A DNA stretch of 64,000 bases from a virus: positions 37,075 through 101,074 of the IMG/VR virus record IMGVR_UViG_3300018080_000131; one strand, given 5' to 3'. The notes beneath the pieces are model-generated. The model had not been told where the DNA came from, ran no database searches, and worked only from the letters and a program-made list of their open reading frames with translations. Below are positions 2,228 to 49,016 of this stretch, piece by piece. Position numbers and translations under genes: made by a program. Every line of letters starts with the position of its first letter. Within the stretch, counting starts at the first letter, position 1.

Positions 2228-2281
2228 CTTGTTTGTTTTTATGTACTTAGAAAAAAACTTTAAAAAACTTTAAAAAAAGAC

Positions 2282-2310
2282 TTGACAAACAAGAAAAAAT
2301 GTTTTATATT
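2282..2310 (+). promoter_or_regulatory. Strong sigma70-type promoter, copy 1 of 6
   Basis: Perfect -35 TTGACA (2282-2287), 17-nt spacer, -10 TATATT (2305-2310). An A-rich UP-like tract runs upstream (about 2250-2280). The same module recurs at 18551, 19394, 20134, 24831 and 25806. Expected transcription start is about 2317. Confidence 0.9.
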
Positions 2311-9923: not shown

Positions 9924-10023
9924 GTTGAAATATGGGTAAAATATACCTGTATAAGGGTGTTAGAGGCTTTCTAAGAGAAGAACTATATAATAGTAATATG
10001 TTTACATTAGTAGAAATAGAAAG
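9924..10023 (+). repeat. Intergenic repeat element, copy 1 of 3
   Basis: Shares long stretches with copies at 14984 and 27981, including a 20-nt identity with copy 2 (GTAAAATATACCTGTATAAG) and TCTAAG (9970-9975). A TATAAT (9986-9991) sits 10 nt after TCTAAG, as in copy 2. Role unknown; see findings. Confidence 0.75.
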
Positions 10024-14980: not shown

Positions 14981-14983
14981 TTT

Positions 14984-15085
14984 ATAGGCTGAAATATGAG
15001 TAAAATATACCTGTATAAGGCTATTAGAGCTATTCTAAGCCAAAAACTTTATAATACAAGTATGTTTGCATTAATGGAGTTTTAA
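14984..15085 (+). repeat. Intergenic repeat element, copy 2 of 3
   Basis: Aligns with copy 1 from TGAAATATG through TCTAAG (15034-15039) and TATAAT (15050-15055), and with copy 3 through TCTAAG, AAAAACT and TTTGCATTA. The segment GGCT...AGCC can fold as a bulged hairpin in this copy only. Confidence 0.75.
14996..15085 (+). CDS. Mini-ORF carried by intergenic repeat copy 2, 29 aa
   Basis: MSKIYLYKAIRAIL... and then ...YNTSMFALMEF. It matches the copy 1 peptide at about half its positions. No strong ribosome site (AGG 12 nt upstream). Low confidence as a gene; reported because of the match to 9932-10042. Confidence 0.3.
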   Translation: MSKIYLYKAIRAILSQKLYNTSMFALMEF

Positions 15086-15119
15086 TAAGGCTTAAAAATG
15101 ATTTGGAGGTGATTAAATA

Positions 15120-15248
15120 ATGGCTAAAAGAGGTGTTCCTAAAAGAGATGGTTCTGGAAGAGGAACTAGAGCAAATAGAGGAAGAGGTGGATGTTCTTCA
15201 ACTAAAGTTAGAGGACAGGGAAGAAGTGGAAACAGAGGAAGGAGATAA
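15120..15248 (+). CDS. Tiny Gly/Arg-rich basic protein, 42 aa
   Basis: Preceded by an unusually complete Shine-Dalgarno, GGAGGTGAT, at good spacing, implying high translation. The product is nearly all Gly, Arg, Lys and Ser (KRDGSGRGTRANRGRGG), like short RDGTG-type phage proteins. Possible RNA or DNA binding (inference). Ends two bases before the next ATG. Confidence 0.6.
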   Translation: MAKRGVPKRDGSGRGTRANRGRGGCSSTKVRGQGRSGNRGRR

Positions 15249-16629: not shown

Positions 16630-17395
16630 GGTTGAAAAGAGAAGTAATGAAAATGCAGAGGATAGTATAGAAAGGAAACATACCTAAAATAGAGATATTT
16701 TTATAGGGTATGGGTATAAAAGAATGGTATATAGGAAAGAAAAAGGTAGTAGAAGGAAAGTAGATACATTGTATATACTTCATGAGGTGTCAAAAACTGC
16801 TCAATTTTTTGCAAGACAAAACCAAAACCAAGGCAAAGAAAAAAGAAGGCTTACTCCAGGGGTAGACCTCAGTTGCAAAGTTGTTGGCACAGGAGAGTAT
16901 GTTTTAGGTTATGAGGCTTTTTGAAGGGTATTATACCACAAATGAGGGGTGTATGTCAAGTAGGATGGTGCTGAAACAGGCTTGGGCTTCCAGAACAGCA
17001 GGGGTTTCTGATGAGCATGGTAGAATCTGTAAAAAACCAGCATATACCACAATATATAGGGGTATTGATGCTGTATATACTAGTCAAAAAAGTTAAGTTG
17101 CAGAAAATAAAAGAGATATGGGTAGAAAAAAGTTTACATAATAAAAGTTATAAGACACAGGTGGGGTATATGATGCAGGATTCTGGTAGTGAAAGTAAAG
17201 TTCAGGTGCAGTTGCAGGAACATTTTGGTATCAAAAGCCAGCAGAAGTTCTCAGGAGTTGGGGATTTTTTTCTTGGAATATGCAGAAGACAACAAGTACA
17301 CCAGTTATACAGTAACAGGGGTAGGATTCCTTGGAATTGAGAAAAAGGATTGTTTACAGTGAAATGTGGTACTATATAGATGAAAGGAGAGAATA
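16630..17395 (+). other. 0.77-kb stretch without a convincing gene
   Basis: Only overlapping weak ORFs exist here (16710-16763, 16724-16924, 16911-17096, 17068-17340). Codon use is unlike the neighbours (more Gln CAG, Val GTG and Ser/Thr codons ending in C or A). The motif GGGGTA or GGGTAT recurs at least seven times. I found short hairpins (GGTAT-T-ATACC near 16927; TTTTG-GTAT-CAAAA near 17224) but no long-range arms like those of the RNA at 18586. It may be a decayed gene, a second non-coding RNA, or a run of micro-genes. Confidence 0.5.
17068..17340 (+). CDS. Possible hypothetical protein, 90 aa (weak)
   Basis: ATG 17068 has AGGGG 6 nt upstream. The product (MLYILVKKVKLQKIKEIW... and then ...RRQQVHQLYSNRGRIPWN) matches nothing I know, and its Gln-rich middle is atypical for this genome. 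It is the best candidate in an otherwise unexplained stretch. Confidence 0.25.
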   Translation: MLYILVKKVKLQKIKEIWVEKSLHNKSYKTQVGYMMQDSGSESKVQVQLQEHFGIKSQQKFSGVGDFFLGICRRQQVHQLYSNRGRIPWN

Positions 17396-20098: not shown

Positions 20099-20133
20099 GT
20101 TGAAAAAAACTTTAAAAAAAATGAAAAAAAGAC

Positions 20134-20162
20134 TTGACAAATGACTAAAAAAGTGTTATATT
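20134..20162 (+). promoter_or_regulatory. Strong sigma70-type promoter, copy 4 of 6
   Basis: TTGACA 20134-20139, 17-nt spacer, TATATT 20157-20162, A-tract upstream (20103-20130). Leader AAGTAGAATGAGAAAC matches copies 5 and 6. Confidence 0.9.
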
Positions 20163-20198
20163 ATAAGTAGAATGAGAAACAAAAAAGGAGAAACAAGG

Positions 20199-24756: not shown

Positions 24757-24830
24757 AAAAAATTTTGATGTGTAAAGTATTGTATAATAATAACTTAGAA
24801 AAAAATTTAAAAAAAATGTTAAAAAAACAC

Positions 24831-24859
24831 TTGACAAACAAGAAAAAATGTTGTATATT
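24831..24859 (+). promoter_or_regulatory. Strong sigma70-type promoter, copy 5 of 6
   Basis: TTGACA 24831-24836, 17-nt spacer, TATATT 24854-24859. Upstream AAAGTATTGTATAATAATAA and A-tract match copy 3. Confidence 0.9.
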
Positions 24860-27983: not shown

Positions 27984-28075
27984 AATATGGGTAAAATTTA
28001 TGCTTCTAAGGCTCTAAGAGGCTTTCTAAGCTAAAAACTATGTTGTATAAGTATATTTGCATTAGTGAGTAGATT
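27981..28075 (+). repeat. Intergenic repeat element, copy 3 of 3
   Basis: GAATATGGGTAAAAT, CTAAGAGGCTTTCTAAG, AAAAACT and TTTGCATTA align without gaps to copies 1 and 2. Its reading frame (MGKIYASKALRGFLS) stops at codon 16 through a C-to-T-type difference, so this copy cannot encode the full peptide. The TATAAT of the other copies is TGTTGT here, with TATAAG at 28046-28051. Confidence 0.7.
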
Positions 28076-28087
28076 GAGGAGCTTAAA

Positions 28088-30559: not shown

Positions 30560-32149
30560 ATGGAAAAAGAGAAGAATAAGGGCTTTGTGTCTAAAGTTAG
30601 GAGTGGTCTAGCTAGGTTTGTATTTGGAGATGAGTTTATTGCAAAACAAACTACAGAATATATTCCTGACAAGGGGAGAACTCCAAACTTTTTTAAAAGC
30701 TTTTATAATCAATATATTGATGCAATAGAAAAGGCTAGAAAAAGGCATGATAAATATGACAGGTATAAATTTCTTGATGACAATTTAGCTGAAGCTTCAG
30801 CTTCATTAAATATTTATGCTGATAATATTGTTAGTGGAGCTATGGGTGGAAGAGAAAATTATATGGTTTTGCTTGATGAGGCTACTCCTAATAAAAGTGA
30901 GATTGAGGAAGTTATAAAATATAATGAACAGATGAGTAATATTAAAAATTCAATTTGGGATATTGCTAGGAAGATGTTGAATTATGGGGATGATTGGAGA
31001 GAAGTTGTTATTGCTCAAAATGATAAAGGATTGAAATATATTGATAAATTAAAACCTTTACCAGTAAAAGAAATGTATGCTGAAGTGGATGATAGGGGTG
31101 TTTGGAAAGACCCATTATATCCATATACTCAAAAAAAGGATGAAAGAGATGATGGTGTTAAATTTGATTGGTGGAGAATACTTCATTTCAAAGTTGGAGA
31201 AGAGGTTTATGGTGATGATTATTCTTTGTTTGCTAATGCTTCTCAGAGAATAGGAAGACAATTGTTGTGGATAGATGATTGTATGGTTATTGCTAGGATG
31301 AGTAGAGCTTGGATGAGGTATGCTTATTTGGTTGATACAGAAGGTTTGAATCCTGAAGAAAGATGGGAATATGCTCAGAGATTTTTAGAGATGATGAAAA
31401 GAACTGAAGAGGCTGAAGAAAGTACTGGAAGGTTGAATCAATATGATGCTCCAAGGATGCCTGATGAGGATATTGTTATTCCTGTTACAAAGGATTCAAG
31501 ACAGGATATTAAACCTTTGAGTGGTGATTTGAATATAGGTAATATTGATGATGTTAGATACTTCCAAGGTAAGTTCCTTATGGCTTTGAATATTCCTAAA
31601 GCTTATATGGCTATTGAAGAAGGTGTAAGGTCAAAGGCTACATTACAACAAATAGATGTTCAGTTTGCAAGACAGGTAAGAAGGAAGCAAGATGCTCTTA
31701 TTCCTGGTCTTAAAAAACTTTATAAGTTGATATTTACTTTGGCTGGTATTGATTATACTTCATTTAATTGGGATATTGTTTTCCCAGAATTGGCTACTAT
31801 TGATGAATTAACAAGATGGGAAATGATGAAAATAAAAGCTGAGGTTGCTAAAATTTTAGCTGTTGATGTTGGAGCTATTAATAATGAATATATTTATTAT
31901 GAGATTTTGGAGATGACAGAAGAAGAGGTTAATAAATACAGGTTGGTTACTCCTGGTAGAGAGCCTTCTGATTTAGTTAATATTCCACCAGAAGTAGCAG
32001 GTAAGTTGAAGAATGACCCATATGTTAGGCAAATGATTGATGATTTAACTGATATTATTTCTTGGAGAAAAGCACAAACTGACAAGCTTGAAGGAATGAA
32101 GGCTGTTGGTGTTGAAAGAAATAAGAGTTTGAAAGAGATGAGAGATTAG
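30560..32149 (+). CDS. Portal protein (T4 gp20-like)
   Basis: 529 aa. It forms the dodecameric vertex through which the terminase packages DNA. Recognisable stretches: KYDRYKFLDDNLAEASASLNIYADNIVSG, a wing/stem region with RYFQGKFLMALNIPKAYM, SKATLQQIDVQFARQVRR, and a C-terminal clip-crown helix region. Length and motif order fit gp20-type portals. GAGG precedes the ATG. A tRNA gene follows 5 nt after the stop. Confidence 0.85.
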   Translation: MEKEKNKGFVSKVRSGLARFVFGDEFIAKQTTEYIPDKGRTPNFFKSFYNQYIDAIEKARKRHDKYDRYKFLDDNLAEASASLNIYADNIVSGAMGGRENYMVLLDEATPNKSEIEEVIKYNEQMSNIKNSIWDIARKMLNYGDDWREVVIAQNDKGLKYIDKLKPLPVKEMYAEVDDRGVWKDPLYPYTQKKDERDDGVKFDWWRILHFKVGEEVYGDDYSLFANASQRIGRQLLWIDDCMVIARMSRAWMRYAYLVDTEGLNPEERWEYAQRFLEMMKRTEEAEESTGRLNQYDAPRMPDEDIVIPVTKDSRQDIKPLSGDLNIGNIDDVRYFQGKFLMALNIPKAYMAIEEGVRSKATLQQIDVQFARQVRRKQDALIPGLKKLYKLIFTLAGIDYTSFNWDIVFPELATIDELTRWEMMKIKAEVAKILAVDVGAINNEYIYYEILEMTEEEVNKYRLVTPGREPSDLVNIPPEVAGKLKNDPYVRQMIDDLTDIISWRKAQTDKLEGMKAVGVERNKSLKEMRD

Positions 32150-32240: not shown

Positions 32241-32654
32241 TTGAGATATTTAACAGATAGAGAAAAGTTTAAGATTGTAAAACAGTTAAGAGAGATGTAC
32301 AAATATGCTGATGATAAATCTAATAAAAAAATAGATTCAAAACTTATTCCTTATTTGAAAAGATTGAATAATGTAGTTGGTGTTGCAACAATTCAAAGTT
32401 GTGTTGGTCATAAAGTTGAAGATGGTTATGAGGATGGTTATTTATGGTTGAGACTGTCAGAGAAGATAAGGAATATTGTTTATGATAAGGTTTATAGTCT
32501 TGTTAACATTGATGGTGTTATAAAGATTTCTATAATCTATCATAGTTCTGGAGAAGAGTTGTTTGAGATTAATTTTCAATCAGTTGAAACAAGTGAAGGA
32601 AGAAAGGCTATTGAAAAGGTTGTAATATTTTTTGAGTTATTAAAATGTTATTAG
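32241..32654 (+). CDS. Hypothetical protein, 137 aa (TTG start)
   Basis: TTG 32241 lies 5 nt after AGAGGT. Contains TIQSCVGHKVEDGYEDGYLWLRL, faintly like TYW3-type folds, then alternating strands (VIKISIIYHSSGEELFEINF). Assignment too weak to name. Overlaps the MuF gene. Confidence 0.6.
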   Translation: MRYLTDREKFKIVKQLREMYKYADDKSNKKIDSKLIPYLKRLNNVVGVATIQSCVGHKVEDGYEDGYLWLRLSEKIRNIVYDKVYSLVNIDGVIKISIIYHSSGEELFEINFQSVETSEGRKAIEKVVIFFELLKCY

Positions 32655-37525: not shown

Positions 37526-38458
37526 ATGGTGAGGAAGTTATTAGGTATTTTTGTATTGGTTTTGTTTTTTGTATCCTGTGGGTATAAACTTGATATTCAA
37601 TTTACTTCAAATACTGTATTAAAAAAGATTGATGAAAATACTATGACAATTGCAGTTTATTATTATATGGGTAATGATGAGTTTAGAAAGAGATTGAATG
37701 AATTGAGTAATATAGATTCTATTAAAATGAGAGGGAGTGTTAAAAATAAACCTTATGCCTTGCAGGTTGTTACTCCAGTATTGGAAGATAATGATAAAGA
37801 TGTTAAAGTACTAGCATATATAGGTTCTGGAACATTGTTAAAAGAGAATTATATTATAAGTGTTAAGCATTTGTTTGACAAAACTGAAAATGTTAGTGAT
37901 ATGAAAATTTGGGTTTTTAATGCAAAACATATAACTCCTATTGAAGCAGAGTTAATTGCTATTAGTGAAGGGAAAGAGTTTTGTGATGATTATGCTGTTA
38001 TAAAGCTAAAAGAAGATTTGGGTTATGATGGTGCTAGGATAATAAGTCCTTCAAGAGTGAAAAGAGGAGATAAAGTTATTTTTGTTGGTTCTCCTGGTGG
38101 TGTTGCATTTCTTACCAGATTTGGATATTTAACTACATTTAAATATTTTTTAAAGAAGAATAATGATAATAATTTAGCACTAGCTTTTTATGATGATTTT
38201 TATTATTGGTGTGTTTATCCAGGTGGTCCAGGTGATTCTGGTGGTTCAATAAGAGATATGGATGGTAATTTGATTTCTGTAATATATTGTGGTGTTACTT
38301 TATATGATGAAGAATATTTATTTGCTAATCCTACTGAAATGCTATGGTGTTTTTTAGAAAAGCATAATTTGGAATGGATTGGAAAGAGGGATTTTCCAGA
38401 AGAAACTGAGGAAACTAAAATAGATAGTAATAAAGATATTGTTTTGCAAAAGAGGTAA
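37526..38458 (+). CDS. Trypsin-like serine protease lipoprotein
   Basis: 310 aa. Type II signal peptide with lipobox ending VSC (Cys18). A chymotrypsin-fold domain follows with the triad in order: His115 in SVKHLF, Asp155 in DDYAVIKL, Ser238 in GPGDSGGS. It should be a lipid-anchored protease outside the cytoplasmic membrane, acting on host envelope or incoming phage proteins (inference). Such an enzyme is unusual in a phage structural region. Confidence 0.8.
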   Translation: MVRKLLGIFVLVLFFVSCGYKLDIQFTSNTVLKKIDENTMTIAVYYYMGNDEFRKRLNELSNIDSIKMRGSVKNKPYALQVVTPVLEDNDKDVKVLAYIGSGTLLKENYIISVKHLFDKTENVSDMKIWVFNAKHITPIEAELIAISEGKEFCDDYAVIKLKEDLGYDGARIISPSRVKRGDKVIFVGSPGGVAFLTRFGYLTTFKYFLKKNNDNNLALAFYDDFYYWCVYPGGPGDSGGSIRDMDGNLISVIYCGVTLYDEEYLFANPTEMLWCFLEKHNLEWIGKRDFPEETEETKIDSNKDIVLQKR

Positions 38459-38762
38459 GATAAGTATATGGCAACTGATATTATGGCTGTTTGTATTGGT
38501 TGCTTTTATATTGTTGTTAAGTAGGTGTTCTATGTTTCCAAGTGAGCATTATCCTTTTCCAAATGTTGAAAAAACTTCAATTAATGAGAATTGTAAAACA
38601 TTTAGGAATTGGGGTGTTTCTGATAGTGAGTTTATGGAGTATGTTCATAAAGAAGTTGAAGGTACTGGTTATATAAAAATTAGTACAAGGAGAGGAAGAT
38701 TGCTTGTTGGTGGAGATGTTATTATGACAGCTATTGTCTATTATGAGAAAGAAAATAAATAA
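38439..38762 (+). CDS. Small lipoprotein or membrane-anchored protein, start uncertain
   Basis: The frame has no ATG before its hydrophobic segment. TTG 38439 lies inside the protease gene, while AGAGGT at 38452 points to an ATA codon (38460 or 38466). The hydrophobic stretch LILWLFVLVAFILLLSRC ends in a lipobox-like Cys, then an 80-residue periplasmic part. It may be an outer-membrane spanin-like protein (inference). Confidence 0.55.
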   Translation: MFCKRGKISIWQLILWLFVLVAFILLLSRCSMFPSEHYPFPNVEKTSINENCKTFRNWGVSDSEFMEYVHKEVEGTGYIKISTRRGRLLVGGDVIMTAIVYYEKENK

Positions 38763-38916: not shown

Positions 38917-39063
38917 ATGTCAAAAAAGAAAAAGAATTATGATGAAAAATATGAACCTTATATAAAGAGTAGGAGTATGTTTCATAAACCTACAAGAGTT
39001 CATAAAAAAAAGAAAGAATATAATAGGAAAGATAAAAGTTGGAAAAATTTAGATAATTGGTGA
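38917..39063 (+). CDS. Tiny Lys-rich protein, 48 aa
   Basis: ATG behind GAGGTAAGAAG. Lys/Tyr-rich, no hydrophobic segment (RVHKKKKEYNRKDKSWKN). Its TGA begins the TGATATAGA box in front of the 60-nt RNA element. Confidence 0.5.
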   Translation: MSKKKKNYDEKYEPYIKSRSMFHKPTRVHKKKKEYNRKDKSWKNLDNW

Positions 39064-39071
39064 TATAGATT

Positions 39072-39131
39072 GAGGAATGGGATTAAGAAAGGCTTATCAG
39101 AAATGATTATCATGACTTTATCTCATTCCTC
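39072..39131 (+). promoter_or_regulatory. 60-nt structured RNA element, copy 1 of 2
   Basis: Outer arms 39072-39083 and 39120-39131 pair over 12 bp (one G-U). The inner core TATCAGAAATGATTA (39095-39109) is identical to copy 2 at 43657 and contains a GAAA loop closed by ATCA/TGAT. Spacings (11 and 10 nt) are the same in both copies while arm sequences differ. Sits 20 nt before the next gene's ATG, upstream of its ribosome site. Confidence 0.75.
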
Positions 39132-39151
39132 TTACAAATATGGAGAGTTAA

Positions 39152-39832
39152 ATGGAAAAAATTAATGTAATTTTAGTTGTACTTTTGGTAATAGCTATAC
39201 TTGGTGTTGGCTATATGTGGGGTGTTAATAAAGCAAATAAAAAACAAGTACAGGCTATTGAAAGAGTTTATCAAGAGAAAATTGATAATTTACAAAATCA
39301 ATTAATTGAGAAAGATAAAGAGCTTCTTGATTTAGAAACTGAAATAGCTGAATTTGAAGAAGATTTACAAATATTGAGAGATGATTTAATTAATATTAGG
39401 AAAGATAATGAGAAAATGAAAGAGAAACTTAAAGAAGCTCCACCAGAGGCTTTGGTTTCTGAGGCTAGAAGAATTGTTGATACTGAAGAGATTTGGCAAT
39501 CAGGTGAGGATATTAAATTTTCTCTTTCTGCATTTAGGGATAATACTATTATTTTAGCTGAATGGGAAAACTTCAAAATTAGATTTATTCCTAATCTTCA
39601 GGAAACTATTTCTGTTCAGAAAGATACTATTAGTGCTTTAAATGCTAAAGATTTGATTTGGAAAGAAAAAGAAAAGCTTTGGGAGAGTCAGAGAGAATCA
39701 CTTGAGAGAATTAATGATGAATGGAAAGAGTTTGTTATTAAGAGACAGAGAAGAGGGTTTTTTGACACTGTACTAAAAATAGGTGGTGGAGTGTTAGCAG
39801 GTATTGTTGTTGGTAAGGTTGTATTAAAATGA
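39152..39832 (+). CDS. Membrane-anchored coiled-coil protein (inner-membrane spanin-like)
   Basis: 226 aa. N-terminal TM (about 5-24), a coiled coil through residue 95, a mixed middle region, a second coil, and a C-terminal hydrophobic GIVVGKVVL segment. GGAGAG precedes ATG. The long N-anchored coil near lipoprotein and holin-like genes suggests an i-spanin or tail-associated membrane protein. Confidence 0.55.
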   Translation: MEKINVILVVLLVIAILGVGYMWGVNKANKKQVQAIERVYQEKIDNLQNQLIEKDKELLDLETEIAEFEEDLQILRDDLINIRKDNEKMKEKLKEAPPEALVSEARRIVDTEEIWQSGEDIKFSLSAFRDNTIILAEWENFKIRFIPNLQETISVQKDTISALNAKDLIWKEKEKLWESQRESLERINDEWKEFVIKRQRRGFFDTVLKIGGGVLAGIVVGKVVLK

Positions 39833-40059
39833 ATGTATTAACAGGTTTTGGAAAATGGTTGTGTTCAACTAAGTTCCAGATTGCTATTATTGTTATTGGT
39901 TTGATATATCTACAGCAGGAGCTTTATGGTTTAAGTCCTGAAGTTGTAGCAGATTCTCTTGTGAAACTTTCATTAGCTTATTTTGGAGCTAGGATTGCAG
40001 AACCATTTGTTGAATATGTAGTTAAGAAGGTTGAGGAGAAGAAAAATGCCAATTCCTAA
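39829..40059 (+). CDS. Small membrane protein, holin-like, 76 aa
   Basis: ATGA overlap. One strong TM (FQIAIIVIGLIYLQQ), a weaker one (LVKLSLAYFGARI), and a charged C-terminus (VKKVEEKKN). Consistent with a holin; not proven. Confidence 0.55.
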   Translation: MNVLTGFGKWLCSTKFQIAIIVIGLIYLQQELYGLSPEVVADSLVKLSLAYFGARIAEPFVEYVVKKVEEKKNANS

Positions 40060-40939
40060 ACCAAATTCAGAAGAAGAGAAAAAAGATTTCATTTCTAGAT
40101 GTATGGGAAATGAAACCATGAAGAGTGAATATAAAGATAATAAACAGAGACTTGCTGTTTGTTATTCTCAATGGAAAAAAAGGAATGAAGAGGTTAGAAT
40201 GGATTTAAGAAGAAAGTTAGAAAGAAGGATTCTAGGAAAGAAGGATACAAAGATTAAGATTAAAGAACAGGAAGCTAGTACTAAAAGTTGGGCTTCTGTT
40301 AATAAGTCTAAACTTCCTGCTTCATGTTTTTTGTGGGTTAAAGACCCAAACAAAAAAAGTACATGGAAACTTCCTTATAGGGAAGGTGCTGGAAGTATAG
40401 ACTCAAAAACTGGAATGTATAAAGAGGCTGGTCCAGTTAATGTTAATGCTATTAGAGCTATTATGAGTGCTTTGGCTGGTGCTAGAACTGGTGATAAGAT
40501 GAGTGTTCCAGCAGAGATTAAAAAGAAGGCTGAGGCTTTAGCAAAGAAATATAAGATTGGGAAATATAAAGAAAATATGTTTAGTATGAGGAATATGATT
40601 GTTGCTGAAGTTTTTATGTCTTTGAGAGATGCTATTCATAAAGCTGTTGTTGATAGATTTGGTAGTCATTCTTATGTTGCTGATTATTCCAATAAAGAAG
40701 TTATAATTGGTTATACTGCTACTTCTCCTGATGGTGAAGTTCCAGTTACTACTGATGATAAGTTTGATAAAATATCTTATAAAGTTAAAAATGGAGAAAT
40801 TGAATTTACTGGTACACCAAAAGAGGTGAAAAGAGTTACCAGATATGAAAGCAGATTGAGTGCTGAAGACCTACAGGAATTAGTTGGGTTTGAGTATGAG
40901 GTTAGGAAATTTGCTGAAGCATATGAGGAGAGTAAATAA
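40046..40939 (+). CDS. Phage head-associated protein, 297 aa
   Basis: Start ATG 40046 after GAGGAG. MPIPKPNSEEEKKDFISRCM...QRLAVCYSQW is an N-terminal domain common next to prohead proteases. A second block (SWASVNKSKLPASCFLWV...AEIKKKAEALAKKYK) is also common in phage head modules. The C-terminus is uncharacterised. Ends in TAATG overlap with the protease-scaffold gene. Confidence 0.6.
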   Translation: MPIPKPNSEEEKKDFISRCMGNETMKSEYKDNKQRLAVCYSQWKKRNEEVRMDLRRKLERRILGKKDTKIKIKEQEASTKSWASVNKSKLPASCFLWVKDPNKKSTWKLPYREGAGSIDSKTGMYKEAGPVNVNAIRAIMSALAGARTGDKMSVPAEIKKKAEALAKKYKIGKYKENMFSMRNMIVAEVFMSLRDAIHKAVVDRFGSHSYVADYSNKEVIIGYTATSPDGEVPVTTDDKFDKISYKVKNGEIEFTGTPKEVKRVTRYESRLSAEDLQELVGFEYEVRKFAEAYEESK

Positions 40940-42348
40940 TGAAATTATATCCTATTCTTGAATATACAATTGGTGAATGTACAGTACTTGGTGAAACTAT
41001 TGTTGATGAAAAATCTAATGATAAAACTATGAGAGTTGAGGTTGTTTGGCAGGTTGCTGATAAAATAAACACTAATGGTAGGTTATATCCAAGGACAATT
41101 CTTGAGAAAAATATTGGTGAAATAAATAATAGAATTAAAGAAAAGAAAACTGTCTATGGTTCTTCATTTCATCCCAGAGATGGGATTGGTGATGCTCATG
41201 ATGTTACACACATTTGGGAATCAGTTGAAATGAATGAGGATGGTATTTGTACTGGAATTTTGAAGGTGCTTCCTACTTCTAAAGGTAAAGAAATTCAAAC
41301 AATATTAAGAGAAGGTGGTTATATTGGTATCAGTTCTAGAGGATTTGGTACTACCACAAAAATAGAGAAGGAAGTTGAAGGTAAGAAAATATCTTATCTT
41401 CAGATAAATGAGGATTTTAAACTACAAAGTCCTGGTGATTTTGTACTTGCTCCTTCTGTCAGTGAGGCAGGGGTTAGGGCAGTTTTAGAGTCCTTGAATA
41501 AAATGGAGCTTCAGTTAAAAGCTGAAGACTCTGAAGAGAATAAAGAAGAGGTAAAATTGGAAAAGAAAGATAAGAAAGAAGAGGAAACTAAAGTGGAATC
41601 TAAAGAGGAAGCCAAGGAAGAAACCAAGGTTGAATCTAAAGAGGAAACTAAAGTGGAATCTGAAGAGCTTGATGCTCTTAAAGAAAAGATTTCTGATTTA
41701 GAGAAAGCTGTTGAAGAGAAGGATGCTTCTCTTAAAGAGAAAGATGAAGAGATTGAGAGAATGAAGGCTGAGCTTGCTAAGTTTGAAGCTTTTGCTGAAA
41801 AGCTTGGTAAGGATGTTCTTGATATACTTCCTGAAAGTGAAAAAGAAGAGGAAGAGGTTGAAGAAGAAGTTGAGGAGTCTGAGGTTGATAAGCTGAAGAA
41901 AGAGAATGAGGATTTGAAAACTAAAGTGGAAGAGTTTGAATCTGAAAAGAAAGCTAAAGCTGAAGCTGAAAAGAAAGCTAAAGCTGAAGCTGAGCTTCAG
42001 GAAAAACTCAAAGCTAAAGTTGATGAGACTCTTAAAGATGAGAAGTATAAAGTTTATGAGTCAGTGATTAGAGATAGAATTACTAAAGATGAAAAAATTA
42101 CTATTGAATCAGAAGATGCTGTTGAATCAGAAATAGAAAAACTCCATGCTGAAATTTCTGAAATTGCTGTCAAAGCTAAAAATGCTGAGATTGGCAAAAC
42201 AGGAATAGAAGAGATTGGAAAAATTGAAAATCCAGAGGGTGAAGAAAAATCAGCTTCTGAGAAAAATCTAAAGGAACAGTATAATGAGGCTGTTTCTGCT
42301 GGGTTTAGGGGTAGTTTTGAGAAGTTCAAAACTATTCAGAAAAAATAA
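40939..42348 (+). CDS. Prohead protease (gp21-like) fused to scaffold
   Basis: 469 aa. Residues 30-170 follow the gp21/S80 protease: NTNGRLYPRTIL, SSFHPRDGIGDAHDVTHIWE (catalytic His) and YIGISSRGFG (catalytic Ser). Residues 190-400 are a Lys/Glu-rich coiled coil with imperfect repeats of KVESKEETK, a typical scaffold to be degraded during maturation. The end (NEAVSAGFRGSFEKFKTIQ) may contact the capsid. Fusion saves a separate scaffold gene. Confidence 0.8.
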   Translation: MKLYPILEYTIGECTVLGETIVDEKSNDKTMRVEVVWQVADKINTNGRLYPRTILEKNIGEINNRIKEKKTVYGSSFHPRDGIGDAHDVTHIWESVEMNEDGICTGILKVLPTSKGKEIQTILREGGYIGISSRGFGTTTKIEKEVEGKKISYLQINEDFKLQSPGDFVLAPSVSEAGVRAVLESLNKMELQLKAEDSEENKEEVKLEKKDKKEEETKVESKEEAKEETKVESKEETKVESEELDALKEKISDLEKAVEEKDASLKEKDEEIERMKAELAKFEAFAEKLGKDVLDILPESEKEEEEVEEEVEESEVDKLKKENEDLKTKVEEFESEKKAKAEAEKKAKAEAELQEKLKAKVDETLKDEKYKVYESVIRDRITKDEKITIESEDAVESEIEKLHAEISEIAVKAKNAEIGKTGIEEIGKIENPEGEEKSASEKNLKEQYNEAVSAGFRGSFEKFKTIQKK

Positions 42349-42360
42349 TAGAGGTAAAAA

Positions 42361-43578
42361 GTGTTAAGTAAAAAAGTAAATAAGTTTTTGCAAGAGCAGA
42401 AAAAGAGAATGATTGCTCTTGATGAAGCAGAACTTCCTGTTGATGATGGTTTTAGAGCTAATGTGATGAGAGATGAGAATGGAAGAAGGGCTAGTGTTAA
42501 TGAAGTTATTTATCAGAATATGATTGATTGGCTTAATTCTCCTCAGGCTGAAGCAATCCTTTGGAAAGAGAGAGAAGTGCTTGAAAGTGCTATTTCTGAA
42601 GATACTCTTTCTACTAGTGTCCCTACTTTCACTACTGCTTCTCTTCCTTTGGTGAGAAGGATTTATAACAAGCTTGATGCTGTTGATTTGGTTTCTGTGC
42701 AACCTTTGAGTGGTCCTACTGGTTATATCTTTTATCTTGATAAGAAATATACTAGTACTACTGGTGAGGTAACTGCATTACAGAGAACTGACCAGCAAAA
42801 GCCTAGAAGGTATATGAATTCTAGTGAGCAGGGTACTATTAGAGAATTGCAGATGGGTATTACCAGATTGCTGATTGAGTCTGATATTTATAAATTGAAG
42901 GCTGATTGGACAATTGAGGCTGAACAGGACTATAAATCTCAGTATAAACTTGATGTTGAAGGCGAGATGGTTTCTGAGCTTGCTGATGAGGTTACCAGAG
43001 AGCTTAATAGGAAAATCCTATATGCTCTTAGAAATGGTATTGCTCATACTGTAACTTATAATCCTACTGGGTATCTTACAGGAGATACAGATTCAACTTC
43101 TAGGTTGGATTATAGAAAGTATGGATTGTTTGGTGCTTTGTATGATGCTCAGGCTTGGATTCTTGAGAATAAGGTCAAAGATGAAACTGCTGTTGATTGG
43201 TGGGTTATAATGAGACCTACTGAGTGGGCTAGATTTAGAAAAATTGGTATGCATGATATGTCAGTTCTTTCTAATGATAGAACTGCTGAAGTTCAGGGTA
43301 GGCATGTTGGCACTATTGATGGAATGTTCAAGGTCTATGTGTCTAATGAGATGAAGAAGAATCAGATGTTGATGGGAATCAAGAAGGGTTGGAAATATGC
43401 TGTTGGTTATTATGCTCCTTATGTTCCTCTTTTTGTGTCTGAGAAATACATCATAAATGATGATTTTACTCAGTTTGCAAGAGGAGTTATGACAAGGTTT
43501 GCCCATGGGGTAATTCCTGAAACTTCTACTGGTTCTACCAACAATGGTCTTGTTCTTATTGATGTAACTTCAAGCTAA
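42361..43578 (+). CDS. Major capsid protein (T4 gp23-like, HK97 fold)
   Basis: 405 aa, GTG start behind AGAGGT. Features of gp23-type capsid proteins: SVPTFTTASLPLVRRIYNKL near residue 90, YIFYLDKKY, the spine-helix region SDIYKLKADWTIEAEQDYKS...GEMVSELADEVTRELNRK, and WWVIMRPTEWARF. The mature N-terminus is probably cut by the protease upstream. C-ending codons are more frequent than elsewhere, fitting high expression. Confidence 0.9.
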   Translation: MLSKKVNKFLQEQKKRMIALDEAELPVDDGFRANVMRDENGRRASVNEVIYQNMIDWLNSPQAEAILWKEREVLESAISEDTLSTSVPTFTTASLPLVRRIYNKLDAVDLVSVQPLSGPTGYIFYLDKKYTSTTGEVTALQRTDQQKPRRYMNSSEQGTIRELQMGITRLLIESDIYKLKADWTIEAEQDYKSQYKLDVEGEMVSELADEVTRELNRKILYALRNGIAHTVTYNPTGYLTGDTDSTSRLDYRKYGLFGALYDAQAWILENKVKDETAVDWWVIMRPTEWARFRKIGMHDMSVLSNDRTAEVQGRHVGTIDGMFKVYVSNEMKKNQMLMGIKKGWKYAVGYYAPYVPLFVSEKYIINDDFTQFARGVMTRFAHGVIPETSTGSTNNGLVLIDVTSS

Positions 43579-43596
43579 TAGTTGATATAGAGGCTG

Positions 43597-43623
43597 GAGA
43601 GAGGATGCTTGTCATCCTCTCTC
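43597..43623 (+). terminator. Perfect 11-bp hairpin after the capsid gene
   Basis: GAGAGAGGATG-CTTGT-CATCCTCTCTC. No U-run follows (ATCCAAAATTG), so it may stabilise the 3' end of capsid mRNA or be a weak terminator. A TGATATAGA box (43583-43591) precedes it. Confidence 0.6.
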
Positions 43624-43633
43624 ATCCAAAATT

Positions 43634-43693
43634 GATGGGAAAAATTAAATGCCATGTATCAGAAATGATTAAGATTTGCTTATTTTTCTCATC
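43634..43693 (+). promoter_or_regulatory. 60-nt structured RNA element, copy 2 of 2
   Basis: Arms 43634-43645 and 43682-43693 pair over 12 bp (one G-U) with a sequence unrelated to copy 1. The core TATCAGAAATGATTA (43657-43671) is identical. It ends 11 nt before the ATG of the first glycan gene, where no ribosome site is visible. Confidence 0.75.
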
Positions 43694-43704: not shown

Positions 43705-44748
43705 ATGAAACTTTTTAATATTGCTGTCAATAAATCAAAATGTAGTCAGGGATTCTCTGATAATTTTGGTGAATCTGTTTCAGTATATCCTAATTGGGGT
43801 GTTGATGTTTCCTTTACAAGAGGGAAACCAATTGCTATAAAAGAGATAGGAAGTTTTGTAAATTTTCTTAGGAAAAGGGATATTAAGGAATTTTCAATAA
43901 AGAGAAGTTTTGCTCTTGGTGATGTTTTAATGTTATGTCCAGTTTATCATTATTTAAAGGATATTGGATTTGAACCAAGGTTATTTATAAAAGATAAGTA
44001 TGCTGGTCTTATGAGATTGCTTGGGACAAATGCTTATTCTATTGATGATATGGATAGTATTATTGATAATCCTGGTTATGGAATTATTCTTGATGGTACT
44101 TTAGAGCTTGACCATGTAAGAAAGAATTTGCAAAAATTTAGCAGAGTTCAATTATATTTTTCTGCTTTGGGAATTTATGATTTCCCAGAAGAAGTCAGGT
44201 GGGATTGTGATTTGAGTAAGTTTCCAGAAATTGAGACTAAATTTGATGATTATGTGGTATTTCAAAGTAAGGGTTCAACAGGTGCAAAAACTCTTCCAAA
44301 TGATACTTCAATTCATATTGTCAAAAGATTAAATGAAGAAGGAATAAATGTAGTTTATATAGGGGACAAAAGAGGTGGAATGGGCAAACAGGTTGATATG
44401 GAGAAGACAGATTTAGCTCATTTCAGGTATAGTGCTAAAGGGTTGTTTTCTCTTATTGGGAAAGCTAAGTGTGTGATAAGTATGGATTCTGCTCCATTAT
44501 GGATTAGTCATTTCACAAAGACTCCATTAATGACTATACTTGGTCCAACAAGTTCAAAGGTAAGATTAAACCACCATCCATTAAATCCTGATGGTGTTGA
44601 GTATTTGCAGTTGAATGAAAGGATAGATTGTGATTGTTGTTTTGAAAAGGCTAAAGCTTGTAATTGGAATTATACTTGTTTAAAGTTAGATAAAGAAAGG
44701 TTATTTAAAATGATTTATGAAAAGATAAAGAGGTTTTGGAATGATTAA
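43705..44748 (+). CDS. Glycosyltransferase family 9-like protein
   Basis: 347 aa. FALGDVLMLCPVYHYLK resembles the N-terminal GDxL loop of GT9 heptosyltransferases, and LIGKAKCVISMDSAPLWISHFTKTPLMTILGPT is the C-terminal nucleotide-sugar site (Asp in MDSAP). CDCCFEKAKACNW near the end is a Cys cluster also seen in GT9. It would transfer a sugar to a glycan. First gene of the glycan island. No clear ribosome site; the 60-nt RNA element lies in front. Confidence 0.75.
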   Translation: MKLFNIAVNKSKCSQGFSDNFGESVSVYPNWGVDVSFTRGKPIAIKEIGSFVNFLRKRDIKEFSIKRSFALGDVLMLCPVYHYLKDIGFEPRLFIKDKYAGLMRLLGTNAYSIDDMDSIIDNPGYGIILDGTLELDHVRKNLQKFSRVQLYFSALGIYDFPEEVRWDCDLSKFPEIETKFDDYVVFQSKGSTGAKTLPNDTSIHIVKRLNEEGINVVYIGDKRGGMGKQVDMEKTDLAHFRYSAKGLFSLIGKAKCVISMDSAPLWISHFTKTPLMTILGPTSSKVRLNHHPLNPDGVEYLQLNERIDCDCCFEKAKACNWNYTCLKLDKERLFKMIYEKIKRFWND

Positions 44749-47584
44749 ATTATTAGAACATATGCTTAAAGTTGATGGTAAGCAAATTGACCCAAAAATG
44801 AAATGCACTATTAGTTTTTATGATAGAAAGGAAGAACCAAGAATTTTTAAACCAGGAGAGTATGTAACATTGAAAGATATTAAAAACTTTAGAATACCAG
44901 ATAAATATCTTGTTAATCCTGAGTGTATGAGGCTTAAAGGAGCTTTTAAATTTGCTCATAAACATAAAGGAACTTTTACAGTTGGAATCTTGAGGAATCA
45001 TAGAGGTGCTGGAGATGTTATTATTGCTTCAGTTATTGCAAAGGCTTTAAAATTTGTTTATAAAGATAAAGCACAGGTTTGGTTTTGTGTAAAATCAGAA
45101 CATGCTTGTTTGTTAGAAAATAATCCTCATATTGATAAGGTGTTTACTGATGAAAAGGAAATGATGAAAGAGAATCCAGATATTAGGGTTGATACTAATG
45201 TTATTGATTTTAGAGTTAAATTAAAAGAGTTTGAAGAGGCTGGAAAGCCATTAAAAAATAGAACTGATATTTATCTTGAGGAACTTGAGTTATATGTTGA
45301 GAATAAAACTCCTGTTTATGTAGTTACAGATGATGAGAAAAAATGGGCTAAGAATGAATTAAATAAACTTGGGTACAATTCAAAAAAAAGAATTGTTGGT
45401 TTGCAATTAGAAGGTTCTGTTAAAAGTAGAACTTATCCTTATATGAAAGAAGTTGGTGAGTTGCTTAAAAAAGAAGGTTACCAGATATTTTATCTTGATG
45501 AGAAAAGTGATGGTAAATTTAAATATGGGTTTAGAGAGATTGCTTCTCTTATGAATGAAATGTATATGATAATCACTCCTAATTCATTTATGTATCATTT
45601 AGCAGGAGCTTTAGGTAAAAGGGGTTTGGTGTTGTTTGGTTCTTGTGATGGTAATATTTGGGTTGAAGATTATGAAAAGATTCTTCCAGTAGAGATACCT
45701 TGTCCTTTTGGACAGAAAAAATGTTGGTGGAGTTTTAGGTGTCTTGAAGGTGATAGTTTGAAAGAGAAGGAGAATAAAGGTGTTCCTAAATGTTTAAGTG
45801 ATATTACTCCTGAGCAGGTTGTTGAAAACATGGAAAAACATAAAAATGTCAAGAAGGTTCTTGTGCTTGCTCTTACTTATGATTTTTTAAATCTTACTAA
45901 AGATATGGTTGATTCTGTAAGAAGTTTTCATGATTATGATATTTTTATTGTGGATAATGAGAGTAAAGATGGAACTGTTGAATGGTTAAAAAATAGAGGA
46001 ATTGATTTTGTCTCAAAAAAGACCAGTGTTGCTCAGGCTGAAAATATTGGTTTGGAAAAAGCATATGAGGGAGGCTATGATTATTGTTTAGTTTGTAATA
46101 ATGATATTATATTATCTGCTGATTATATTGATGTTTTAGTTGAAATTGCAGAAAGAAGAAAATCTTATATGACCACAGGGAAGGTTATTACTAAAGATTC
46201 TAAAGAAATGCTTGATTTTGAAAAGCTAAAAGATAAGAATATAGAACTTCCTATTCAAGTCATGGAAGCTGGTGATTATTCTGCTATTCTAATGTCAAGA
46301 GAATGTATTGAAAAGGTTGGAAAGTTTGATGAAAGGTTTGGTCCAAGGTATCAGGAAGATGAGGACCATATGTTAAGAGTTAGGCTTTCTGGTCATGATA
46401 TTATTAGAACTTACAGTACAAGTTTCCTTCATATGCTAGGGCAGGTTTGTAAAAAGAATAGAAAAGAATCTATTTATCATGAAGATAATTGGGCTAGGAA
46501 TGTTAGAAAATTTAAGAAAAAATGGGGTATTGATTTATATGCTGAAAGAAATAAGTTAAAGCATTTGAATGAGATTAAAAACAATGTTCCTAATTGGAAT
46601 GATATGATTCATATTCCTATTACAGATAAAAAGGTTAAGTTTGATATTCATAATATTACTACTCCAATTAATATAATAAAAGAGGCTATTAAGAATAATA
46701 AAAAATCTAGGGTTGCTGTTGTTAGGAGAATGGGGGGAGCAGGAGATATATTATTTATATCCATTATAGCTAAAACATTGAAGAATATTTTTGGTGCTAA
46801 GATTGAAATTGATTATGCTATTCCAAAAAATTTATTCTCTTTATTGAAATATAATAAGCATATTGATAAAGTTGTTGATTATCATGATTTTCATGGTGGT
46901 GATTATGATTTTGTATTTCATACAACAGATTATGAATATGAACAGGAAATGTTACAGGTTGAAGAAACAGGATGGATTCAGAAGGCTAGAACTGAAATGT
47001 TTGTTGAGTTAGTTGGTATTGATGCTGATTTAAAACCTGATTTTGATTTAACAAATGATGAGATAAAGTGGGGTAAGAAACAATGGGAATTTGCTGGTGA
47101 TAAAAAGAAAATTGCTGTTTCTATTAAAGGAAGTAATAAAATGAAAGAGTGGATAAGGTTTGATGCTTTTATAGAAATGCTTGAGAGGAAAGGTTATGCT
47201 GTTATTGTCCTTGAAAGAATGGAAGGAGAGAAATATAAATATAGCCTTAGAGAAGCAGGAGCTATTATAAATGCTAGTGATGCTGTTGTATCACCAGATA
47301 GTGCTTTTTCTAATATAGCTGGTTGTTTGGGTATTCCAGTTGTAACTATTTTTCCTAATAGGAATGGTAAGATTTTTGAAAGAATGTTTCCTAGTATGAT
47401 TGCTGTTCAAGGAGAGTGTCCACATTTTGATGATAGGAATTATTGTGATTATAAAGTTCCATGTTTTGAAGGTTCTATACAGGATTATAGAAAAAAAGAA
47501 CAGATTAAACCACCAAAATGTTTAAATGGTTTATCTCTTGGTAAGGTTTTTGAAGCATTAAGGAGAGCTTTAAATGAGGCTTGA
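44741..47584 (+). CDS. Three-domain glycosyltransferase GT9-GT2-GT9
   Basis: 947 aa. Domain 1 (about 80-345): ILRNHRGAGDVIIASVIAKAL, then ITPNSFMYHLAGALG. Domain 2 (about 370-600): GT2 fold with VDNESKDGTVEWL, NNDIIL as DXD-like metal site and a later EDEDHMLRVRL. Domain 3 (about 654-947): VVRRMGGAGDILFISIIAKTL and VSPDSAFSNIAGCLGIPVV. The two GT9 units resemble each other more than the neighbour at 43705. One chain could thus add several sugars. Overlaps both neighbours by 8-11 nt. Confidence 0.8.
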   Translation: MIKLLEHMLKVDGKQIDPKMKCTISFYDRKEEPRIFKPGEYVTLKDIKNFRIPDKYLVNPECMRLKGAFKFAHKHKGTFTVGILRNHRGAGDVIIASVIAKALKFVYKDKAQVWFCVKSEHACLLENNPHIDKVFTDEKEMMKENPDIRVDTNVIDFRVKLKEFEEAGKPLKNRTDIYLEELELYVENKTPVYVVTDDEKKWAKNELNKLGYNSKKRIVGLQLEGSVKSRTYPYMKEVGELLKKEGYQIFYLDEKSDGKFKYGFREIASLMNEMYMIITPNSFMYHLAGALGKRGLVLFGSCDGNIWVEDYEKILPVEIPCPFGQKKCWWSFRCLEGDSLKEKENKGVPKCLSDITPEQVVENMEKHKNVKKVLVLALTYDFLNLTKDMVDSVRSFHDYDIFIVDNESKDGTVEWLKNRGIDFVSKKTSVAQAENIGLEKAYEGGYDYCLVCNNDIILSADYIDVLVEIAERRKSYMTTGKVITKDSKEMLDFEKLKDKNIELPIQVMEAGDYSAILMSRECIEKVGKFDERFGPRYQEDEDHMLRVRLSGHDIIRTYSTSFLHMLGQVCKKNRKESIYHEDNWARNVRKFKKKWGIDLYAERNKLKHLNEIKNNVPNWNDMIHIPITDKKVKFDIHNITTPINIIKEAIKNNKKSRVAVVRRMGGAGDILFISIIAKTLKNIFGAKIEIDYAIPKNLFSLLKYNKHIDKVVDYHDFHGGDYDFVFHTTDYEYEQEMLQVEETGWIQKARTEMFVELVGIDADLKPDFDLTNDEIKWGKKQWEFAGDKKKIAVSIKGSNKMKEWIRFDAFIEMLERKGYAVIVLERMEGEKYKYSLREAGAIINASDAVVSPDSAFSNIAGCLGIPVVTIFPNRNGKIFERMFPSMIAVQGECPHFDDRNYCDYKVPCFEGSIQDYRKKEQIKPPKCLNGLSLGKVFEALRRALNEA

Positions 47585-49016
47585 GATTAAAGAAAAATTA
47601 CAGTTTCCTTCTCATGTTGATATTGAACTTACTAATGCTTGTCAGTTAAGATGTATTTTTTGTCCAAGAAAATATATGACAAGAAAAAGAGGTTTTATGG
47701 AGTGGAAGGTTTATAAAAAAATAATTGATGAGATAAATGGAAAATCTAAAACTGTTTATCTTCATCAGTTTGGTGAGTCTTTATTACATTCAGATTTAGT
47801 GGAAATGGTTAAGTATGCTAGTAAGGCTGGTTTATGGGTTTCATTAAGTACAAATGGTCTTATGCTTAATGAGAACCTTTCTAAGAGGCTTTTTAAGGCT
47901 GGTCTATCTCATATGTTTCTATCACTTGATTCTATGAATCCTGAGCTTCTAGAGAAGCTTAGAGTGGGTATTAATGGTAAAAAAGCTATAGAAAATATGG
48001 AAAATTGTATTAAGGTTAGAAAGAATATGAAAGATGTTAAAACCAAGCTTGAAGTTCAGATGATAAAAATGGATAGAAATAAAGATGAGATTGAGGAATA
48101 TAAGAAAAAATATTCTAAAATGATTGAAGGTGTTGGTAAGGTTATGATTAAACCTTATTGCATGTATGCTGGGAATGTTCCTAATTTTACTCCAAAAGAA
48201 GACAGGAAAGTTAAGAAGTTTGAGTGTACTATGTTTAATTATTCTATAACTATTCAATGGAATGGTGATATTGTTGTTTGTTGTATGGATTATGATGGAG
48301 TTACAAGGTTTGGTAATGTTAATAAAACTTCAATAGCTCAGGTTTGGGATTCACCAGAATATAAGCAGTTTAGATTAGCACACAAAAGAAAAGATTTTTC
48401 AAAACTATATCTTTGCAGAGGATGTTATTGGGCTTCAGAGTTGGTATTTGAGGATTTTCCAAAAGCTAAGAAGATGTTGGAAGAACATAATACTGTTCCA
48501 AGATTAAACAAAGATACTATTGATTATTTGAAAAAGTTTTTAAATGAAAATAAAAAGGTTTTAGAAGTTGGTTCTGGTAGTTCAACAATATGGTTAGCAA
48601 AAAGAGTAAAAAAAATTGTTTCACTTGAAGATAAAAGAACTTGGTATGAGGCTGTAAATGAAAAATTAGTAAAAGAAGGGTTGAGTAATGTTAGAGTTAT
48701 TCTTCATAGTGATTATTATAAAGATAAGATATTTTCTGAAATAATTCAAAATGAAGAGTTTGATGTTGTTCTTCTTGATGGTGCAGATTATAGAGGAGCT
48801 AGGTTGAATTGTATGAATCAGGCTATTTCTTTTGTAAAACCTGGAGGCATAATTATTGTTGATGATTCTGAAAGAATAGATTATGATGAAGGTTTGAGTT
48901 ATTTTGATAGTTATGACTGGAAGAGGATTGATTTTGAAGGAAAAGATGCTTGGGGAGATGAGAAAAAGGCTACAATTTATATAAGACCAGAAGTAGAAGT
49001 GAGGTTGCTTAAATGA
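47574..49016 (+). CDS. Radical SAM/SPASM protein fused to SAM-dependent methyltransferase
   Basis: 480 aa. C23-x3-C27-x2-C30 in TNACQLRCIFC binds the radical SAM cluster; a Cys-rich SPASM-like part follows (VVCCMDYDG, LYLCRGCYW). From residue about 328 a class I methyltransferase begins: VLEVGSGSSTIWLA and DVVLLDGADYRGARL, GGIIIVDDSER. In phage and bacterial glycan clusters such proteins modify sugars. Fusion of both activities is unusual. Substrate unknown. Confidence 0.8.
   Translation: MRLEIKEKLQFPSHVDIELTNACQLRCIFCPRKYMTRKRGFMEWKVYKKIIDEINGKSKTVYLHQFGESLLHSDLVEMVKYASKAGLWVSLSTNGLMLNENLSKRLFKAGLSHMFLSLDSMNPELLEKLRVGINGKKAIENMENCIKVRKNMKDVKTKLEVQMIKMDRNKDEIEEYKKKYSKMIEGVGKVMIKPYCMYAGNVPNFTPKEDRKVKKFECTMFNYSITIQWNGDIVVCCMDYDGVTRFGNVNKTSIAQVWDSPEYKQFRLAHKRKDFSKLYLCRGCYWASELVFEDFPKAKKMLEEHNTVPRLNKDTIDYLKKFLNENKKVLEVGSGSSTIWLAKRVKKIVSLEDKRTWYEAVNEKLVKEGLSNVRVILHSDYYKDKIFSEIIQNEEFDVVLLDGADYRGARLNCMNQAISFVKPGGIIIVDDSERIDYDEGLSYFDSYDWKRIDFEGKDAWGDEKKATIYIRPEVEVRLLK

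Follow-up and report, generated by a model that had tools for sequence, protein, structure and literature searches.

What kind of signal is carried by two 60-nt sequences that share a fixed centre but differ in their mutually pairing ends, and that lie close before two genes of a phage related to T4? The source record is a 101,074-base phage genome from IMG/VR that encodes a T4 gp23-type major capsid protein, UvsX and a phage DNA polymerase, and the window (G000:C1:37075-101074) is the whole stretch of 64,000 nt that was analysed. The sequence-only reading had proposed two copies of a regulatory RNA or protein-binding element placed just upstream of a lysis-like gene and of a glycan island. 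Its coordinates and geometry hold for both window copies, each with one G-U pair in the outer stem, and the placement is borne out, since copy 1 precedes a spanin-like lysis gene and copy 2 the first glycosyltransferase of the glycan island. The number of copies needs correction: both window copies are real, but the 101-kb genome holds three, the third lying outside the window in front of uvsX/recA. Each element is built as a 12-bp stem, 12 nt, the hairpin ATCA-GAAA-TGAT, 12 nt and the closing arm of the stem, as follows.

39072..39083, + strand: copy 1, 5' arm of the outer stem (GAGGAATGGGAT)
39084..39095, + strand: copy 1, 5' linker, 12 nt
39096..39107, + strand: copy 1, apical hairpin ATCA-GAAA-TGAT (15-nt invariant core at 39095-39109)
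39108..39119, + strand: copy 1, 3' linker, 12 nt
39120..39131, + strand: copy 1, 3' arm of the outer stem (ATCTCATTCCTC)
39152..39832, + strand: spanin gene following copy 1, Rz-like by its PHROG match, encoding an N-terminal membrane helix and a coiled coil
43634..43645, + strand: copy 2, 5' arm of the outer stem (GATGGGAAAAAT)
43646..43657, + strand: copy 2, 5' linker, 12 nt
43658..43669, + strand: copy 2, apical hairpin ATCA-GAAA-TGAT (15-nt invariant core at 43657-43671)
43670..43681, + strand: copy 2, 3' linker, 12 nt
43682..43693, + strand: copy 2, 3' arm of the outer stem (ATTTTTCTCATC)
43705..44748, + strand: gene after copy 2, glycosyltransferase family 9
G000:32348-32407 (L001:1478-1537), gene strand: copy 3, directly before uvsX, outside the window

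All copies lie on the strand of the following gene, and the distance from the end of the element to the start codon is 20 nt for copy 1, 11 nt for copy 2 and 21 nt for copy 3. The predicted fold forms the expected stem in all three. In each of them a T opposite a T flanks the stem on its outer and inner sides, the loop side of the stem closes with AT/AT, and the 5' linker starts with TAA; the apical tetraloop GAAA is of the GNRA type. Among the neighbouring genes, a trypsin-like serine protease with a lipoprotein-type N-terminus is found near the lysis-type genes (window 37526-38458), and the glycan island contains a 480-aa protein (window 47574-49016) whose N-terminal part appears by eye radical-SAM-like (CQLRCIFCPR) and whose C-terminal part methyltransferase-like.

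A box upstream of both window copies had been counted with the element. It was dropped as a component, because it is missing at copy 3, ends 2 nt before copy 1 and 42 nt before copy 2, and overlaps, at copy 1, the stop codon of a small ORF that precedes the element. A simple hairpin near copy 2 is also separate.

39061..39069, + strand: TGATATAGA near copy 1, judged outside the element
43583..43591, + strand: TGATATAGA near copy 2, judged outside the element
43597..43623, + strand: simple hairpin GAGAGAGGATG-5-CATCCTCTCTC, 3' of the major capsid gene

The three copies align without gaps over 80 columns, and this absence of indels weakly suggests a constraint on length. All 12 pairs of the outer stem are formed in every copy (100% of cells paired), although only four are constant, two being changed on one side and six on both. 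None of 500 shuffles matched the observed compensation, and the pairing is destroyed when the partner is shifted by 1-3 columns. Three copies thus uphold the proposal, first made from two, of an RNA element whose core is fixed and whose outer helix is compensated. Five pairs carry two-sided changes between copy 2 and copy 1, and six between copy 2 and copy 3, while copies 1 and 3 look like duplicates whose resemblance extends past the element. Because no relative found conserves the element, the comparative evidence is restricted to three paralogous copies, and with two of these being duplicates it represents few independent events. The inner hairpin shows no variation across the copies, and covariation therefore says nothing about it.

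These pairings bear on whether the active form is DNA or RNA. A near-palindromic, invariant core upstream of a gene in every copy is what might be expected of an operator, a promoter part or a recombination site, with the outer repeat aiding a cruciform. However, the outer arms vary yet match each other, which needs a folded strand, and the two irregular pairs read G-U on the coding strand but would read C-A on the opposite one, which points to a sense RNA. Core-like words are also not enriched elsewhere in the window, so that a DNA site appears improbable. The same lack of enrichment led us to reject the idea that the core is a general promoter or a frequent word. No sigma70-type early promoter lies adjacent to the element on the gene strand, the promoter-like sites of the region being at shuffle level, and the phage's own early promoter type (ACTTGACAAA...TATAAT) is not present at the copies. 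Host-type early promoters, composed of an A-tract, ACTTGACAAA and TATATTATAAGTAGA, are repeated at gaps of the early region (window 2228-2298, 20099-20171, 24757-24847 and 25797 onward).

The core itself is not explained by chance. Paired ends of 12/12 at the spacing of the element occur in four 60-nt windows genome-wide, against a shuffle mean of 3.97, and three of these four share the identical 15-nt core, while the best shared core in 60 dinucleotide shuffles averaged 6.3/15 and reached 11/15 at most. The core is invariant while the linkers drift, copy 2 sharing few linker positions with the others. A core held constant amid drifting linkers suggests a recognised sequence; a protein is the simplest candidate and probably the one that recognises it. 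Duplicates retained passively, with no function, would agree with the resemblance of copies 1 and 3 and with the absence of the element in relatives; they are nevertheless very improbable, as double stem changes and an invariant core amid drifted linkers need selection.

The explanation preferred here, held tentatively, is a protein-recognised, cis-acting RNA hairpin in the mRNA leader or intercistronic part, directly 5' of uvsX/recA, the spanin-like gene and the glycosyltransferase gene. The 12-bp stem would hold out a small apical GAAA hairpin of fixed sequence on two 12-nt linkers, the apical core would most likely be recognised by an RNA-binding protein or nuclease of the phage or the host, and recognition may set the translation or stability of the following gene. 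We infer RNA as the active form, the protein binding and its effect; no RNA-binding partner protein was identified. Compensated hairpins at similar places in relatives favour a leader hairpin. A more specific proposal, which must be regarded as rather doubtful, is a new phage RNA operator in which one trans-acting protein binds the GNRA hairpin, with its symmetric 12-nt linkers and 12-bp stem, and co-regulates genes for recombination, lysis and glycans.

Other readings were tested and are disfavoured, namely an RBS switch, an intrinsic terminator, a general promoter and a small protein. The stem does not include the ribosome-binding sites, whose predicted accessibility is about equal whether or not the element is present. 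This shows no simple switch, and the reading as an RBS switch was rejected. None of the three stems is followed by a U-run, and the intrinsic terminator was likewise discarded.

Translation of a tiny leader peptide through the hairpin could instead couple to the next gene. A frame reading TCA-GAA-ATG-ATT (SEMI) is open across all three copies (G000 32340-32432, 76144-76239 and 80679-80777) and terminates at the next start codon or close to it, with an ATGA overlap at uvsX; open frames also cross several long hairpins of the relatives. Yet the codon scores of the three frames fall within the lowest 2% of in-frame stretches of the genome, the frames of copies 1 and 3 are separated by 10 nonsynonymous codon changes and one synonymous change, and TTG is the sole start in the frame of copy 1. 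A leader ORF is accordingly quite improbable, and a small protein or leader peptide gene was rejected for its noncoding codon score and the lack of purifying selection on codons. Small repeated sequences of other kinds also occur in this genome. A 27-nt word, AAATGTGGTACTATATAGATGARAGGAG, is found three times directly 5' of gene starts, at window 17366-17395 (G000 54440) and, outside the window, at G000 14335 and 26407; it could code for a tiny leader peptide, MWYYIDER, or contain a promoter/RBS. Tiny paralogous ORFs of the form MGKIYLYKAIRGFLSQKLYN occupy separate gaps at window 9924-10023, 14981-15132 and 27984-28087.

Relatives were obtained by capsid and UvsX searches and comprise near-complete records of 92, 97 and 98 kb plus several fragments, with which synteny is clear. 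At the junction of the capsid and glycosyltransferase genes their simple hairpins are unrelated in sequence. Between SSB and uvsX some relatives lack a gap altogether, and the hairpins that others carry there are again of unrelated sequence. A direct case of exchange is seen between L313 and L314, where the flanks directly 5' of uvsX are near-identical and the intercistronic hairpins wholly different. Swapping at this junction is seen among the relatives' hairpins, but not for the element itself.

Two of the relatives, G006 and G007, have in common a long hairpin 5' of a UvsW-like helicase gene (L162:18649-18739 = G006 38649-38739), with a Shine-Dalgarno sequence in its 5' arm and a small open frame across it. 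Its arms are compensated (GGAGGCACGA/TCGTGCCTCC versus GGAGGTACAA/TTGTACCTCC), and it is a candidate for a second leader hairpin with true covariation between phages. Leader hairpins about 20 nt 5' of starts are thus habitual in these phages, with quick turnover of their sequences. Another hairpin, at G006 38510-38585, follows the plan of the element (12 bp, 20 nt, ATCC-GAAA-GGAT, 20 nt, 12 bp), and is followed by a U-run and promoter-like sequence. As a look-alike of the element it is only suggestive, because a scan of the kind that found it gives 0-2 matches per shuffled set and the sister phage G007 has no such hairpin.

This turnover gives some weight to an intercistronic hairpin cassette in which structure alone matters, PeSL-like, marking operon borders and aiding 3'-end formation or mRNA stability, to be gained, lost and exchanged by recombination, with a core inherited mainly by duplication. 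The unrelated or absent hairpins at the SSB-uvsX junction, including the difference between L313 and L314, are consistent with it, as are the G006 hairpin with its U-run and promoter-like sequence missing in G007, the similarity of copies 1 and 3 beyond the element, and the PeSL shuffling in T4-like phages that the citing paper PMC4503421 reports. A passive loop, however, would not be expected to keep a 15-nt core between the strongly drifted linkers of copy 2, and the copies have no U-run and no regional promoters beyond chance level. Such a cassette is a possible account of lesser probability, and we favour the protein-recognised leader hairpin over it, with the DNA site and the leader ORF behind.

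The sequence-only reading had suggested a motif-model search for a wider occurrence of the element and had named a lack of further copies in relatives as grounds for refutation. Such a lack is largely what was seen: apart from the three copies, none was found in ten related viral records or in the collections searched. In IMG/VR, the pattern of the core 15-mer gave at least 119 stretches, with arm pairs of at most 8/12 among the matches listed, and the AT-N12-hairpin-N12-AT pattern at least 118, with at most 9/12 among the matches listed. A TAA-N8-core pattern gave 17 loci with at most 6/12 arm pairs, and one strict pattern in prokaryote genomes, ATTAA-N9-hairpin-N12-AT, 9 matches, none with the stem. 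A covariance model run on 537 kb of the phage and its relatives recovered the three copies and no others; its runner-up was the reverse strand of copy 1 (E 0.1), and a hairpin after the SSB gene (G000 31708-31772; E 0.21) has arms resembling copy 2 and no core. When the copies were compared by BLAST with phage records, only weak short matches appeared. The element reached the gathering score of no Rfam family. As far as sampled, it is confined to this phage lineage rather than being a widespread class; absence here means 'not found' and not 'does not exist', as records closely similar to this phage may be missing from what was searched.

Should the core be a binding site, a T4-related phage would have a post-transcriptional regulon of three unlinked, functionally different genes, and freely swapped intercistronic hairpins would be readable signals rather than inert terminators. 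Being small and available in three natural variants, the element is easy to test.

Several known systems resemble the element in part. RNase III processing sites of T7 are intercistronic hairpins of about 60 nt with fixed geometry and an internal loop, and boxB of lambda is a small RNA hairpin with a fixed loop that is recognised by a protein. The element is like the T7 sites in size, fixed geometry and the presence of an internal loop, but this loop has 12 + 12 nt and the upper stem is only 4 bp. The T4 gp43 operator is likewise a small fixed-loop hairpin before a gene, recognised by a protein (PMC3014915); unlike it and boxB, the element has no known cognate protein and carries its hairpin on an outer 12-bp stem and 12-nt linkers. 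T4-type phages use leader hairpins for control, and the leaders of T4 e, soc, 49, I-TevI, 25 and 38 also place RNA structure beside the translation start, one of them before a lysis gene (PMC3014915). In those leaders the structure contains the Shine-Dalgarno sequence or start codon or sits between them, whereas the stem of the element ends 11-21 nt upstream with neither inside the helix, leaving predicted RBS access about unchanged. The nearest class in kind is the promoter early stem-loop (PeSL) cassettes of T4-type phages (Arbiol et al., 2010; Comeau et al., 2014; via PMC4503421). These are described as intercistronic stem-loops of T4-related phages, present in several copies and tied to the swapping of neighbouring modules. 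The element is also a stem-loop in intercistronic gaps of such a phage, but it differs from this description in having no early promoter or U-run, a 36-nt loop with a fixed core, and three copies only. Its stem belongs to the hairpin habit of these phages, while what sets this phage apart is the invariance of the core and the fixed length of the linkers. The best reading is that the element represents this phage's own version of the T4-type intercistronic hairpins, which change fast, and that a fixed apical core distinguishes it.
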